Positions 2,741 through 22,341 of a DNA stretch of 30,589 nucleotides are shown here, piece after piece. The notes below the pieces were generated by a model. The model did not search any database and was not told the origin of the DNA. It was given only the letters and a program-made list of their open reading frames with translations. The position numbers and the translations under genes were made by a program. Numbering within the stretch: position 1 is the stretch's first letter; each line of letters opens with the position of its first letter. Where the stretch lies: positions 1 to 30,589 of IMG/VR virus record IMGVR_UViG_3300033552_000043; one strand, 5' to 3'. Origin of the DNA: a virus.

Positions 2741-3445
2741 TTAAGCGTCTACAACCAAATTAGGTTTTTTAGATTTCTTTGTTGGTGCTGGGAGTTCCTC
2801 GATAGTCTTATTGAAAGCCAACTCAGCAGCCTCGTACTCAGCCCGCAATAGCTCATTCCTTGCTTCAAATCTGGCACCAAATTCTTCAGCAAAAAACCAG
2901 TAGTCTTTTCCTTCCAGTAAAGCAGTGATTTCCTCTTCCGTAAGGAAGCCCTTGTACGTAGAGTGCATGACACGCTCCATGTAATCCTGGGTAAACTTAG
3001 CCTGACTCTTAAAATCACTGTACTTGCCACCCGATCCGCATGACCCATTGTGGACAAGGCAATTAAAATTCTCAGAGAGCGTGAACTCATCAGCCTCTAG
3101 TAGGATTACAGTGCCTGCAGAATGCACACCTCCTGAAGCCTTAACGATGATTTTGCCTTCACACTCACGCATAGCCTGGATGAACATGTCAGTGGCATCC
3201 AAAGACCCGCCAGGGGTTTGCAAGTGAACAATCACAGTGTCTTTTTCTGTTGCCGCTTGCATCACCTCAATTGCATTCAGGAATTGCCTTGGTGTTTCAA
3301 TTACGTCAACGAGATAAATGTTGAATGTGCCAGAGCGAATGGGGGTGTAAGTCACTGCAAATTCTTCTGGCTCTGCTGTGTAGTAGCTGGCACGTTTGGC
3401 TGCAGGAGGTTTTCCTTGACGAATGTCGGTTTGAAATTTGTTCAT
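2741..3445 (-). CDS. ClpP-like serine protease (S14 family)
   Basis: This 234-residue protein has a ClpP fold signature. The likely triad is Ser109 in GGVHSAG, His132 in CLVHNG and Asp181 in GKDYWFFAEEFG; QTPGGS (76-81) is the usual strand before the oxyanion region. The serine context is HSAG rather than the ASMG of cellular ClpP. Residues after about 195 form a charged helical tail ending in a Lys-rich segment. The ATG at 3445 has AAAGGAA upstream; an earlier in-frame start at 3490 overlaps the endonuclease gene. A separate S49 protease sits in the head module, so this copy, grouped with PhoH and SLOG, probably does not process capsids. It may degrade host or phage proteins, perhaps with a host unfoldase. 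Confidence 0.8.
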   Translation of the reverse strand: MNKFQTDIRQGKPPAAKRASYYTAEPEEFAVTYTPIRSGTFNIYLVDVIETPRQFLNAIEVMQAATEKDTVIVHLQTPGGSLDATDMFIQAMRECEGKIIVKASGGVHSAGTVILLEADEFTLSENFNCLVHNGSCGSGGKYSDFKSQAKFTQDYMERVMHSTYKGFLTEEEITALLEGKDYWFFAEEFGARFEARNELLRAEYEAAELAFNKTIEELPAPTKKSKKPNLVVDA

Positions 3446-3455
3446 TGGTGTTCCT

Positions 3456-4190
3456 TTATTGAGTATGACCGGCAGTGTAGCCTGCACCATCTAAGTTCAT
3501 TTGTGCAATCATTTTATCGCGGTAATTTACAGCCATTGCAAAGGCCGGTAGCATACCAAAGGTCTTTACAGAAAATACTTTCGAGCAGCATTTACCTTCC
3601 AAACTGCGCCATTGCGACTTAGCGTACAGTGAACTTGCAAGACCGCTAGGGTGCATCTTATCATCCCAGACAACACCCTTCTTTCCAGAAGAGTTATTGC
3701 AAGGCATACCCTTGTTACGGGCCTGCTGGTGGTCTGTCGCCCAGCGGACATTGCCGACTACGTAGCTCCCCTCGTTATCAATCCGATCAACAGAGTACCG
3801 CTGCCCATCATTGGGCTTAGGCCCGATATGTCCATAGAAAGCATCAAACGATGTCTTCCAGGCTTCTTCAATAAGAACTCCAACTGCACCATAATTCGGG
3901 TATTCCTTGTCAGTAACAACAAGGCAACGCTCACGCATCTTTAACCAAGACTTATATTCCCTGCCCTTTGACATACCATGCGTACTCTTAGCCTTAGACT
4001 GCTTCTCAAATGTCTTGCAGCCACAAGAGGTTGCCTTACCAAATCCAAGTCGCCCAACAGTGGTCTTAAAAAGATTTCCGCAAGAACATGAGCAATTCCA
4101 GAAGTAATCGCCGTTGTCGCTTTTATCCGCAATACTCATGGCTGTAAGGTCGCCATATACGTTGCCTTGGATGTTTTTAATTCTAGGCAT
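3456..4190 (-). CDS. HNH-type homing endonuclease with zinc-ribbon and AP2-like parts
   Basis: This 244-residue protein matches the layout of phage free-standing HNH endonucleases. Residues 33-58 hold a Cys cluster (CSCSC then SCGC) that probably binds zinc. Residues 79-112 contain the KSWLKMRERC...YGAVGV segment that precedes the nuclease core, and 135-152 the DRID...NVRWAT core typical of this HNH group. Residues about 168-226 resemble a degenerate AP2-like DNA-binding domain. The start overlaps the PhoH stop (TAATG) with GAGGGAA upstream, so it is embedded in the leftward operon. Its position between unrelated genes fits a mobile homing gene. DNA cleavage is inferred from family. Confidence 0.8.
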   Translation of the reverse strand: MPRIKNIQGNVYGDLTAMSIADKSDNGDYFWNCSCSCGNLFKTTVGRLGFGKATSCGCKTFEKQSKAKSTHGMSKGREYKSWLKMRERCLVVTDKEYPNYGAVGVLIEEAWKTSFDAFYGHIGPKPNDGQRYSVDRIDNEGSYVVGNVRWATDHQQARNKGMPCNNSSGKKGVVWDDKMHPSGLASSLYAKSQWRSLEGKCCSKVFSVKTFGMLPAFAMAVNYRDKMIAQMNLDGAGYTAGHTQ

Positions 4191-6800: not shown

Positions 6801-6812
6801 GTGTTTGAGATT

Positions 6813-6891
6813 TTAAAGCGGCATACCTTGTCAATTCCCTCCAAGGTTCTTGGTGTGTCGCTTTAAGATTTTAATAACTATCCTTGGAGGG
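6813..6891 (+). promoter_or_regulatory. Pseudoknot-like leader masking a ribosome site
   Basis: Positions 6813-6827 can pair with 6852-6866 (15 bp, two G-U). The loop between contains CCCTCCAAGG (6837-6846), a perfect complement of CCTTGGAGGG (6882-6891), the Shine-Dalgarno of the gene at 6900. Together they make an H-type pseudoknot or, alternatively, a simple SD/anti-SD hairpin. A local ACCTTG (6826-6831)/CAAGGT (6842-6847) pairing competes. This looks like translational control of the endonuclease. Confidence 0.6.
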
Positions 6892-6899
6892 ATTAGGCA

Positions 6900-7844
6900 A
6901 TGCGAAAATTAACCAGAGAACAGGTAGTCTCACGACTTACGGGAGTCCACATGGGGAAGTGGGACTACTCAAAAGTAGAATATACAGGTCGCCACGAAAA
7001 GATAACTATAGGTTGTAGCATACACGGGGATTTCAGGCAGACCCCTGCAAACCACGAAAAAGGCCAGGGTTGCCCTATCTGCGGGGATATTATGCAAGGC
7101 AAGTCTCGGCGCTACTCACTAGAGACTTTCATTGAAAAGTCAATTGCCATCCACGGCAATGCGTACACTTACGAGAGAGTCACCTGTGCGGAGTTAAGAA
7201 ACAAGGAGTTCATCACTTGCCCAAAGCACGGCGACTTCTTGATGCACCGTGATATGCACTTATGTGGTCAAGGTTGCAAGTACTGTGGACGCGAGTTACA
7301 GTCTGAATCTCAACGATACTCCACAGATGAGTACGTAGAGCGTGCTAGTGTAGTTCACGGAGGTCTGTTTGATTACTCTGAAGTGGTCTACACCCGCTCC
7401 ACCGACAAAATATCTATACTTTGCAAAGAGCATGGTAGGTTTGTACAGGAGGCTGCAAGCCATTTGACAGGAATTGGTTGCCCGAAATGTAGTTCACGCG
7501 GCTTCAATAATTCTACTCCTGGTTACTTATATGTCCTTCAGTGCGACAACCTCGTTAAAGTTGGTATAACAGGTCGAGAAGTTAGTAGGCGGCTTGCGGA
7601 GGTTGTTAAAAGTTCGCGTAAGCCATTTGAGATAGCTTACGCAAGATACTTTGAAGATGGAACAGAGTGCCGTAACAAAGAAGGCGACACTCTGGCCTAC
7701 TTGAGAAATCGCTACGTAAGTCCATTGCAAAAGTATGACGGGTATTCTGAGACATTTATGAATGCCCTAGTTACGGATGTAGTTACTGCTTGTACTGATG
7801 ACTCAATTACAGACAGGTTAAAGAGGGATTTGTTCGCTGACTAG
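6900..7844 (+). CDS. GIY-YIG endonuclease with three zinc-ribbon-like repeats
   Basis: This 314-residue protein has three tandem repeats (about 20-63, 85-130 and 155-200) of the form Y-[DT]-Y...IxCxxHGxF...HxxGxGCPxC, similar to DUF723-type repeats and likely to bind zinc and DNA. A C-terminal GIY-YIG-like nuclease domain begins near 208: GYLYVLQ, then VKVGITGREVSRRL. The gene lies between the terminase subunit genes, a common homing site. Its SD, GGAGGG, is 8-9 bases from the ATG and can be masked by the leader at 6813-6891. A second gene of the same architecture is at 20986. Cleavage specificity is unknown. Confidence 0.8.
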   Translation: MRKLTREQVVSRLTGVHMGKWDYSKVEYTGRHEKITIGCSIHGDFRQTPANHEKGQGCPICGDIMQGKSRRYSLETFIEKSIAIHGNAYTYERVTCAELRNKEFITCPKHGDFLMHRDMHLCGQGCKYCGRELQSESQRYSTDEYVERASVVHGGLFDYSEVVYTRSTDKISILCKEHGRFVQEAASHLTGIGCPKCSSRGFNNSTPGYLYVLQCDNLVKVGITGREVSRRLAEVVKSSRKPFEIAYARYFEDGTECRNKEGDTLAYLRNRYVSPLQKYDGYSETFMNALVTDVVTACTDDSITDRLKRDLFAD

Positions 7845-14406: not shown

Positions 14407-14412
14407 GTTAGC

Positions 14413-14495
14413 GCCCTCTAACGAGGGCTTAATTACAAATGGCCCTCATTGCGAGGGCTGTTTTCTATTGCGTCCTTTTCGGGTGCAATAGAAAA
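14413..14495 (+). terminator. Three-hairpin terminator/antiterminator after the capsid gene
   Basis: Hairpin 1 is GCCCTC (14413-14418)/GAGGGC (14423-14428). Hairpin 2 is GCCCTC (14442-14447)/GAGGGC (14453-14458), followed by TGTTTTCT, a terminator. Hairpin 3 pairs 14461-14475 with 14481-14495, a 15-bp stem with two G-U pairs. The T-tract of hairpin 2 is the left arm of hairpin 3, so the two elements may regulate each other. Confidence 0.7.
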
Positions 14496-14511
14496 CGAAT
14501 AAAGGAGCCTT

Positions 14512-20447: not shown

Positions 20448-20888
20448 ATGGCCGTAATGACATCCGCTGGCTCTACGCTGGCAATCGCAACAGGTACTCC
20501 TGCAACTTATGACGCCACCGGGTTCGCCGCGTTGTCTTTTGTGACTATCGGTGAGGTGACTGATATTGGAGAGATTTCTAATCGGGAATACGCCGTTGTG
20601 AACCACTCCGCAGTCGGTACGCGTACTGTAAAGAAGTTTAAAGGATCGTACCAGACAGGCTCTATGCAGATTCAGATGGCTAGGGATGTTGCAAATGCAG
20701 GTCAAACAGCCCTTCGTGCGGCCTTGCTGTCCGACGCTGACTACTCTCTCAAGGTCACTTTGCAAGACCTCTCTAAGATTTTTTTCGTTGGCAAAGTCAC
20801 AAAAGTGTCCACCAGTATTGGTTCAGTCGATCAAATCACTGGCCTGATGTGCACCATCGAGTTGAGCGGTGACGTAGTTGAAGTTTGA
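20448..20888 (+). CDS. Major tail tube protein
   Basis: This 146-residue protein fits phage tail tube proteins: an N-terminal region with FAALSFVTIGEVTDIGEIS, then VVNHSAVGTRTVKKFKGSYQ and a C-terminal GLMCTIELSGDVVEV strand. Similar proteins polymerise as hexameric rings around the tape measure. It lies after the tail terminator and before the chaperone pair, interrupted by the endonuclease gene. AAGGAAAATAAT precedes the ATG. Its TGA stop overlaps a promoter -35 box. Confidence 0.8.
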   Translation: MAVMTSAGSTLAIATGTPATYDATGFAALSFVTIGEVTDIGEISNREYAVVNHSAVGTRTVKKFKGSYQTGSMQIQMARDVANAGQTALRAALLSDADYSLKVTLQDLSKIFFVGKVTKVSTSIGSVDQITGLMCTIELSGDVVEV

Positions 20889-20913
20889 AAAGATTGAGAA
20901 TCTGGTGTATAAT
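20885..20913 (+). promoter_or_regulatory. Promoter upstream of the second zinc-repeat endonuclease
   Basis: TTGAAA (20885-20890) and TATAAT (20908-20913) are 17 bp apart, with TG directly before the -10. An inverted repeat (20894-20904 with 20915-20925, one G-U in RNA) encloses the -10 box, which may be an operator or a hairpin in read-through mRNA. Confidence 0.65.
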
Positions 20914-20917
20914 TCAG

Positions 20918-20927
20918 GTTCTCAATA
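20918..20927 (+). repeat. Left copy of GTTCTCAATA flanking the endonuclease insert
   Basis: GTTCTCAATA at 20918-20927 recurs as a direct repeat at 21892-21901, right after the endonuclease stop. It may mark the boundary of the inserted gene, but at 10 bp chance is not excluded. Confidence 0.4.
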
Positions 20928-20937
20928 ATGAGAATGA

Positions 20938-20960
20938 AAGACCCTTTAATGGGTCTTTTT
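20938..20960 (+). terminator. Terminator ahead of the endonuclease gene
   Basis: AAGACCC pairs with GGGTCTT around TTTAAT, followed by TTTTC. Its right arm and T-tract overlap the left arm of the 21-bp stem at 20955-21025, so the two structures compete. It may end tail-tube transcripts or attenuate the short transcript from 20885. Confidence 0.7.
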
Positions 20961-21025
20961 CTACAAACCCTTCAAAGGAGTCTACATGGTTAGAAGATCG
21001 ACAATTGAAGGGTTTGTAGAAAAAG
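20955..21025 (+). promoter_or_regulatory. Perfect 21-bp hairpin enclosing a ribosome site and start codon
   Basis: Positions 20955-20975 are exactly complementary to 21005-21025. The 29-base loop contains AAGGAG (20976-20980) and the ATG at 20986. The right arm is coding sequence. The stem should hinder initiation or be an RNase III substrate, and it excludes full formation of the terminator at 20938-20960. Confidence 0.75.
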
Positions 21026-21891
21026 TGAATCTCGTTCACGAAGGCAAGTACGACTACTCACTCGCTGAATACACAGACTCTCGCACTAGAGTGGAAATTA
21101 TTTGCCCCAAGCATGGTAGTTTTTGGCAAGTACCTAAGTTTCATATGAGTGGTGGAGGTTGCCCTAGCTGTAGCCCTGCTGCACTGCTTACGGCAGTTGA
21201 GTTTATAAGGAAGGCAGTGGTGACCCACAAAGACAAGTACGACTACTCTTTCGTAGTATACACAGGTTATATAGAGAAGGTAGAGATTGGTTGCCGCAAT
21301 GGACATAAAAACTTCTGGCAACTTCCTGCTGTGCATATTCGCGGCTCAGGCTGCCCATCTTGCAGTGGCCTGCCGCGTTACACAACAGAAGAGTTTAAAG
21401 TGGCGTGTAGCGCAGCCCACCCAGGTAAGTACACATACGATAAAGCCGTCTACGTGAATTCAAGCACGAAGGTGATAGTCACTTGCCCCTCACATGGCGA
21501 CTTCAAGACAACCGCAATCGACCATAGGCGAGGTTCAGGTTGCCCTACCTGTAGTTCAACCGGATATAACCAGAACACCTCTGGGTACTTCTATATCCTA
21601 TCAGACGATATCGTCACAAAAGTAGGCATCACAAACCGTAGTGCAGAAGTCAGGACAAAAGAAATCACCAGAAGTTCAGGGTTGAATTTCACAAAGCGTT
21701 TCAGCCTGTATTTTGAAAACGGAGCTACGGCCAAGGCACTTGAAACAACCATTCTTGCCTCGTTTAGAGGTACACACAAACAACCGGAAAGCATCTATGA
21801 CGGCTCTACAGAGAGCTTCTTAGGTGTAGACCTTGACCAATTACTAACTCTGATTTCAGATCAAGTAACCATCCTAACGGATAAACCCTAA
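20986..21891 (+). CDS. GIY-YIG endonuclease with three zinc-ribbon-like repeats (second copy)
   Basis: This 301-residue protein is a diverged paralogue of the product at 6900. It has three repeats (about 20-60, 83-125 and 149-193) of the type KYDYS...VEIxCxxHGxFWQ...HxxGxGCPxC. A C-terminal GIY-YIG-like domain follows: GYFYILSDDIVTKVGIT from about 204, then SLYFENGATAKALETTILASF. It separates the tail tube and chaperone genes, which are normally adjacent, so it is very likely a mobile insertion. AAGGAG is five bases from the ATG, inside the loop of a 21-bp hairpin. GTTCTCAATA occurs on both sides of the gene. Confidence 0.8.
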   Translation: MVRRSTIEGFVEKVNLVHEGKYDYSLAEYTDSRTRVEIICPKHGSFWQVPKFHMSGGGCPSCSPAALLTAVEFIRKAVVTHKDKYDYSFVVYTGYIEKVEIGCRNGHKNFWQLPAVHIRGSGCPSCSGLPRYTTEEFKVACSAAHPGKYTYDKAVYVNSSTKVIVTCPSHGDFKTTAIDHRRGSGCPTCSSTGYNQNTSGYFYILSDDIVTKVGITNRSAEVRTKEITRSSGLNFTKRFSLYFENGATAKALETTILASFRGTHKQPESIYDGSTESFLGVDLDQLLTLISDQVTILTDKP

Positions 21892-21942
21892 GTTCTCAAT
21901 ATAGAGAGCAACAACAACCCTACCAAAGAAAGTGAACCAATA

Positions 21943-22341
21943 ATGTTTAACCTAGAATCCCTTGCCCTGACAAGCACAGTAACCCTTCAGATTCGTCACC
22001 CAGTTTCTGACGACTTCTTGTTTGCAGATGAAGCCAAGAAGCAGCCCATTAGCATTGAACTGCACGGCACCAGTTCAAAAGAATACCGTAATGCTATTAC
22101 TGCCATGCAAAACCGCGCTCTGAAGCGTGGCAAGAAGCAAGCTAGTGCAGAAATCATGAAAGAAGAGGGCGTAGAACTCTTGGTTTTGTGCAGCGTAAAA
22201 ATTAGCCACCTTAGCTACGATGGTAAGCCCGTCAATGATGATGCATCCTTCCGTGCAATTTACAGTGATGCTAAGTACAGTTGGCTGAAAGACCAAGTGG
22301 ATGCATTGCTTGGTGATAATTCAAATTTTCTGCAAGCGTAA
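21943..22341 (+). CDS. Tail assembly chaperone (lambda G-like)
   Basis: This 132-residue protein sits between the tail tube and tape measure genes and has the composition of G-type chaperones: a strand-rich N-terminus (STVTLQIRHPVSDDFLF) and a helical, charged C-terminus. Near the end the sequence reads A-AAT-TTT in frame, a slippery heptamer. Most ribosomes stop at 22341, but a -1 slip makes a longer GT protein. It is thought to bind tape measure protein during tail assembly. Confidence 0.75.
   Translation: MFNLESLALTSTVTLQIRHPVSDDFLFADEAKKQPISIELHGTSSKEYRNAITAMQNRALKRGKKQASAEIMKEEGVELLVLCSVKISHLSYDGKPVNDDASFRAIYSDAKYSWLKDQVDALLGDNSNFLQA
22323..22329 (+). other. Programmed -1 frameshift site AAATTTT
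   Basis: The reading frame of the G-like gene shows TC-A AAT TTT-C, the canonical X-XXY-YYZ pattern. The -1 frame is open from 22320 to 22793, with the only upstream stop at 22317-22319. The overlap of the two frames is 22320-22341 and contains exactly this one heptamer. Confidence 0.85.

Follow-up and report, generated by a model that had tools for sequence, protein, structure and literature searches.

A perfect 21-bp hairpin around the start codon of a putative phage homing endonuclease, overlapping a tail-tube terminator: a candidate brake on translation

The window analyzed here is a viral contig of 30,589 bases from a phage known from one metagenomic contig, and a DNA search of phage records with it returned no match. 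Its genes follow a siphophage-type order (tRNA-Thr, endonuclease, terminase, head genes, tail tube, endonuclease, chaperones and tape measure), and the second endonuclease in this order is inserted after the tail-tube terminator and before the tail-chaperone gene. The features at this locus, all on the plus strand, are as follows:

20448-20888, plus strand: major tail (tube) protein gene (PHROG 158 major tail protein, E 1.9e-12; relatives L007-L017 and L183-L262)
20885-20913, plus strand: predicted sigma-70 promoter TTGAAA-17-TATAAT (11/12), overlapping the tail-tube stop codon
20919-20934, plus strand: palindrome TTCTCAATAATGAGAA, found behind the tail-tube gene in several relatives too
20937-20960, plus strand: intrinsic terminator of the tail-tube gene (AAAGACCC/GGGTCTTT plus U-tract), ancestral to the site
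20955-20975, plus strand: left arm of the start hairpin, its first bases being those of the terminator right stem and U-tract
20976-20980, plus strand: Shine-Dalgarno sequence (SD) AGGAG, in the loop and directly adjoining the stem
20986-20988, plus strand: ATG start codon of the endonuclease, in the loop
21005-21025, plus strand: right arm of the start hairpin, inside endonuclease codons 7-14 (I-E-G-F-V-E-K-V)
20986-21891, plus strand: free-standing putative homing endonuclease, 301 aa, with three DUF723/DUF4379-type zinc modules and a C-terminal GIY-YIG (T5orf172-like) domain
21943-22341, plus strand: 132-aa gene after the slot, lying directly 3' of the tail-tube terminator in endonuclease-free relatives

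An earlier note on this DNA had read the gene as a second endonuclease, and this was borne out: the 301-aa protein matches PHROG 681 endonuclease (8.8e-66), and a member of the same family also lies in the window at 6900-7844. Homologues of this family occur in 837 of 50,697 phage records. The tandem zinc modules were recovered by DUF4379 (5.7e-10) and DUF723 (5.5e-6), both past the cutoff. Pfam T5orf172 gave no match for the 301-aa protein alone; it matched the window's other copy at 22.4 bits (cutoff 20) and the homologue in the relative L016 marginally, at 19.4 bits, just under that cutoff. Conserved residues of the nuclease domain are found at Y203, G214, R223 and E253. The AlphaFold model (mean pLDDT 87) yielded no Foldseek match as a whole, a GIY-YIG match emerging only when the C-terminal domain was compared: the predicted fold of residues 196-301 is best matched by the GIY-YIG nuclease Slx1 (Z 6.9), followed by UPF0213. 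On this modeled fold, the C-terminal domain is a predicted nuclease of the GIY-YIG type. T5orf172 proteins with DUF723-like domains have been recognized as homing endonucleases, and the ICP1-type members with CapR/DUF723/DUF4379 share with the window protein the repeated zinc modules and the C-terminal GIY-YIG-type nuclease; hairpins, terminators and ribosome binding sites do not come up in the text of that study (PMC10448857).

Behind the tail-tube gene, relatives have a terminator-like hairpin and, after it, the 132-aa gene. This slot is empty in L184, L188, L190, L193, L195, L200 and L017 and occupied in L016, L199 and L203, the endonuclease thus being present or absent at an otherwise conserved site. 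It lies between the terminator and the 132-aa gene in the window, L016 and L199, and directly at the tail-tube stop in L203. The terminator-like hairpin is found at the same place in L184, L188, L190, L193, L195, L017 and L194, all endonuclease-free. Several smaller features accompany the slot. A truncated endonuclease copy in L197 (near 3045-3655) follows the apparent first codons of the 132-aa gene, which restarts downstream. In the window, the inserted endonuclease is flanked by a direct repeat, GTTCTCAATA, at 20918-20927 and 21892-21901. Before the 132-aa gene of L184, L193, L195, L197, L200, L199, L203 and L017, placed after either the tail-tube terminator or the endonuclease, lies a small hairpin with a near-invariant CAAAGA loop, whose stem is wholly different among phages yet paired; its counterpart in the window, at 21893-21908, has a different loop.

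An inverted-repeat search of the window found the arms of the start hairpin exactly as they had first been described, 21 nt each, 100% complementary and separated by a 29-nt spacer, and the loop that was said to hold the ribosome site and ATG does contain AGGAG at 20976-20980 and the start codon at 20986-20988. The claim that such a stem is unlikely by chance also held. The RNA of 20920-21040 folds at -47.4 kcal/mol, compared with -23.0 ± 3.3 kcal/mol in shuffles (z = -7.4; 0/200 shuffles as good). Among 32 start regions in the window, the endonuclease start (20986) has the most negative z when positions -110 to +70 are folded, and with -60 to +70 only 22389, which has its own hairpin, has a lower value; it is also the most negative among 134 family starts and 400 control starts. 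Within 1.09 Mb of de-duplicated related phage loci, the start hairpin is the only non-repetitive perfect repeat of at least 20 bp, the others of that length being low-complexity and all in one locus.

Opening positions -20 to +19 at the endonuclease start costs 23.7 kcal/mol, the highest of the 32 window starts (median 9.1), and this cost drops to 4.2 kcal/mol when the left arm is removed. Opening -12 to +6 alone costs 6.7 kcal/mol, which is ordinary (window median 5.55), and the AUG is mostly unpaired in the predicted ensemble (P unpaired about 0.9 or more). Fold, ensemble and opening cost all place a stable RNA hairpin at this translation start, and in the ensemble neither SD nor AUG is base-paired in a helix, both sitting in the loop. 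Because SD and AUG are unpaired and the -12 to +6 cost is ordinary, any block would depend on the 30S subunit needing the flanks open. The same open loop could be taken as a sign that the stem aids translation, for instance through exposure of SD and AUG or protection of the 5' end of the mRNA, and initiation-improving structures do exist in T4 genes 25 and 38; we regard this as very improbable, given that the 30S footprint is so costly to open and that the hairpins of T4 homing endonucleases repress.

The left arm had been said to share bases with the intrinsic terminator, and it does, although the overlap is small: 4-5 bases, with right-stem bases 20955-20958 and then the U-tract (to 20960) common to both. 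It had further been proposed that terminator and start hairpin exclude each other, and this part of the claim fell. The predicted ensemble gives P = 1.0 to terminator pairs 20940-20944/20951-20955 and, at the same time, about 0.88-1.0 to the innermost 16 pairs of the start hairpin (20960/21020 inwards), so the two helices are present together and are not mutually exclusive. The right arm is transcribed after RNA polymerase has passed the terminator, and in folds of the nascent chain the terminator is finished well before that arm has been made, which argues that terminator and start hairpin most likely act in series, not as alternatives, as far as these predicted folds indicate. An attenuator with mutually exclusive terminator and antiterminator was rejected as a candidate, as the terminator stem does not enter an alternative pairing and the helices coexist. 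Alternative folds in which the hairpin prevents termination, or the reverse, could appeal to the shared bases 20955-20960, but are hardly credible: both structures coexist, a terminated transcript would lack the gene, and the right arm lies about 45-65 nt past the termination point and cannot form in time to affect termination.

Ribosomes finishing the tail-tube gene should not melt the stem, since the tail-tube stop (20888) is 66 nt upstream of the left arm. A search between left arm and SD found no promoter inside the start hairpin, the only promoter-like site being the upstream one at 20885-20913; full-length transcripts would for that reason always carry the lock. A transcript from the upstream site would start near 20920 (about -65) and include the whole hairpin. 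Promoter-like sites scoring at least 11/12 number 4 in the window compared with 0.55 in shuffles, and the site at 20885-20913 is not conserved in the relatives compared.

We then compared the stem with homologues of the gene at the same site. In L016, the leader (21 nt, TCTTTTCAATACGTTTTTAAG) and codon positions +20 to +40 pair at 18 of 21 positions, ungapped and in register with the window stem, a score reached by 80 of 50,000 dinucleotide shuffles, while registers slid by 1-4 nt give at most 13. Relative to the window stem, 6 pairs are changed on both sides, 3 on one side and 3 are broken; the window loop is longer than the L016 loop by just the 10-nt SD segment. The six two-sided changes argue that the stem has been maintained and is not a fresh accident. 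Judged from these sequences, the stem is common to the window and its closest same-site homologue and appears to have been kept by compensatory changes. The earlier note had proposed looking for relatives with the same gene and arms that are not complementary, and the outcome was divided: L199 and L203 lack the stem (11 and 13 of 21 pairs, respectively), whereas the nearest homologue, L016, keeps it. The pair without the stem is the more distant one, with nuclease-domain identities to the window of 42% (L199) and 41% (L203) compared with 62% for L016. With L199 and L203 lacking complementary arms at the same site, the stem is not a general property of the gene. We also rejected a start hairpin conserved throughout the family, as most of about 160 homologues are without such a stem; start-flanking stems are rare in the wider family, with a few look-alikes (e.g., L171 and L086).

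Two other explanations of the stem bear on these comparisons. It might belong to the abundant tail-tube mRNA as a transcript-end or processing element, either a barrier to 3' exonucleases or a target of RNase III, with the endonuclease start incidental. RNase III typically acts on perfect stems of about 16-21 bp. Strong hairpins also stand behind a structural gene without an endonuclease, as after the major head gene (14407-14511), and a 16-bp perfect inverted repeat in L015 (3463-3510; = L194) has a left arm that starts inside the tail-tube terminator, again without an endonuclease. We nevertheless consider a processing element unlikely: at this place, the terminator and a small hairpin are all that most endonuclease-free relatives have, the right arm is coding sequence whose pairing is kept by compensatory changes, and other endonucleases at the slot hide their starts by unrelated structures.

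The stem might alternatively be a functionless by-product of replication template switching near the terminator hairpin, one arm having been copied as the reverse complement of the other. Template switching is documented to create and repair hairpins (PMC8794818), the window arms are perfect, and the stem begins within the terminator right stem both in the window and in L015. The coding arm also holds family-rare residues, its Gly being unique among 124 members. Its overall amino-acid departure is mild, however (rank 11 of 126), and the L016 stem, with partial decay and six two-sided changes, speaks of long persistence. Structured starts are, moreover, enriched among slot endonucleases, and switching could equally keep a selected stem perfect. 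A by-product of this kind is in our judgment fairly improbable, although the L015/L194 repeat and the hairpins after the head gene keep both this and the processing explanation alive.

Many of the closest homologues found by a nuclease-domain search also sit behind tail-tube genes. We compared 15 endonuclease starts at this slot with next-gene starts in 21 endonuclease-free relatives. The endonuclease starts are more structured (z -2.74 vs -0.75, P=5e-5) and have a higher shuffle-normalized opening-energy z (0.76 vs -0.74, P=7e-4); these P-values are indicative because the slot list was built after some leaders had been seen, and the loci are phylogenetically related with near-duplicates partly removed. 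Start codons of homologues were set by a simple rule that was wrong for some, L264 and L281 being corrected by hand; the slot test omits L282, whose start the rule misplaced (its leader was read and left unscored), and the defective copy in L197. Across the wider family, z is below -3 in 11 of 134 starts compared with 7 of 400 controls (P=0.001), an enrichment in overall start structure only, with pairs spanning the ATG not enriched (P=0.50).

The slot leaders fall into distinct types. A conserved leader RNA, type A, lies behind tail-tube genes in six loci:

L098, 1252-1321: type A leader RNA
L264, 3072-3148: type A leader RNA
L266, 3313-3377: type A leader RNA
L270, 1574-1643: type A leader RNA
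L281, 3307-3374: type A leader RNA
L284, 2886-2955: type A leader RNA

In these leaders, a strand AGTGTATC can pair either with an upstream CACT, which closes a P1-P2 element, or with a GGTACAC that holds the SD, and five pairs show two-sided changes. No Rfam family covers the slot leaders, and a strict DNA pattern for the type A leader matched only three loci known before. Weaker matches in L112 (1848-1916) and L280 (5146-5198 and 6198-6268) comprise the first part of the type A leader with no endonuclease directly after. Type B leaders (L265, L267, L126 and L149) form a long hairpin over SD and AUG. In L285, at the slot, and L279, outside it, a TTGACT-17-TATAAT promoter-like site lies inside the start hairpin, and transcripts started there would lack the left arm, as for I-TevI. 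Promoter-like sites inside the start hairpin were seen near 3389 in L279, 2306 in L285, 3001 in L006 and 2004 in L086, the predicted transcription start in L086 being the ATG itself; as promoters inside hairpins are not significantly enriched over controls (6/147 vs 9/389, P=0.20), these four stand as single observations.

From one related phage to another, the start of this gene is concealed in different hairpins, which suggests that its output has repeatedly been kept low at this slot. More tentatively, and with some doubt on our part, T5orf172 endonucleases may land recurrently behind the tail-tube gene in diverse siphophages, and a resident 3' RNA structure there may have been co-opted repeatedly as a lock on the start of a T5orf172 newcomer, through several unrelated pairings and possibly as a switch in which one strand pairs with either the resident element or the endonuclease SD. 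The resident structure would be the terminator U-tract in the window and the conserved P1-P2 element in other phages.

Our preferred reading of the window hairpin, to which we assign a probability of roughly 0.58, is that of a cis-acting, start-occluding brake on endonuclease translation. A free-standing endonuclease would have invaded the slot between tail-tube terminator and tail-chaperone gene, so that any transcript reading through the terminator would contain the left arm. Once the first 40 coding bases are made, the left arm would zip onto them and close SD and AUG in the 29-nt loop, which a 30S subunit could not thread without melting much of the stem. The terminator would lower read-through and the hairpin initiation, leaving translation mainly to ribosomes that load ahead of right-arm synthesis. 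It is from the structure, its position, its conservation in L016 and the enrichment at the slot that we infer repression, its size and co-transcriptional escape. We count in favor of the brake that the window's other endonuclease of this family likewise has a long stem, with a loop complementary to the SD, and against it that L199, L203 and most of the wider family lack the stem and that no promoter inside the hairpin would relieve it.

Phage homing endonucleases repressed by hairpins form a documented class, and among the free-standing ones a translation-blocking hairpin is established in Aeh1 mobE and has been implicated in T4 segB (PMC2988022, PMC3014915). The likeness in purpose to the T4 I-TevI RNA block, with another layout, that had been suggested for this hairpin is reasonable in view of that class. 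Like the window gene, I-TevI, I-TevII and I-TevIII (the first two GIY-YIG enzymes) have a stable hairpin at the start that should reduce translation of long read-through transcripts (PMC2988022, PMC3014915). In T4, however, the helix itself contains SD and AUG, and the start is freed by a late promoter located in the hairpin, whereas in the window both are in the loop, one arm is made of codons 7-14 and the sole predicted promoter is upstream of the hairpin. Aeromonas phage Aeh1 mobE and T4 segB are likewise free-standing endonucleases in phage operons whose initiation RNA structure lowers, or is thought to lower (PMC2988022, PMC3014915), but they belong to other nuclease families (mobE is HNH), sequester the SD and share no terminator U-tract. 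In Aeromonas phage 25 seg43, a very stable hairpin at the endonuclease start also leaves the SD outside the stem (PMC2988022); that stem is wholly upstream of the SD, unlike the window stem, which encloses SD and AUG. What sets the window layout apart from those of I-TevI, mobE and segB is SD and AUG in the loop, a coding right arm, a left arm growing from the terminator and no relieving promoter.

In the literature covered, hairpin control of phage homing endonucleases is known for T4-like phages, and the window locus, together with its relatives, would carry it over to the T5orf172/DUF723 family, with several different RNA solutions at one genomic slot. Two ideas become testable: that translational muting lets selfish genes persist in essential structural operons, and that existing terminators and 3' elements are raw material for such control; if co-option is true, the host phage's own 3' regulatory RNA would silence a selfish gene.

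Other features of the window touch on the same themes. The first endonuclease (ORF 6900-7844) has a long stem upstream of its start (6806-6900), behind a terminator-like hairpin and the tRNA-Thr gene; 11 contiguous bases in its loop are complementary to the SD region (TCCCTCCAAGG, 6836-6846, and CCTTGGAGGGA, 6882-6892), a possible loop-SD pseudoknot. ORF 3456-4190 on the minus strand, between ClpP-like and PhoH-like genes, has a sub-threshold AP2-domain match and may be a third homing endonuclease. The stretch 14407-14511, which follows the major head gene, holds three consecutive hairpins, the last with a 16-bp stem. Finally, a 15-bp perfect hairpin (22404-22418/22435-22449) lies inside the tail-assembly-chaperone ORF and may relate to a frameshift there; hairpins similarly spaced from the preceding stop occur in L184, L197, L199 and L017.
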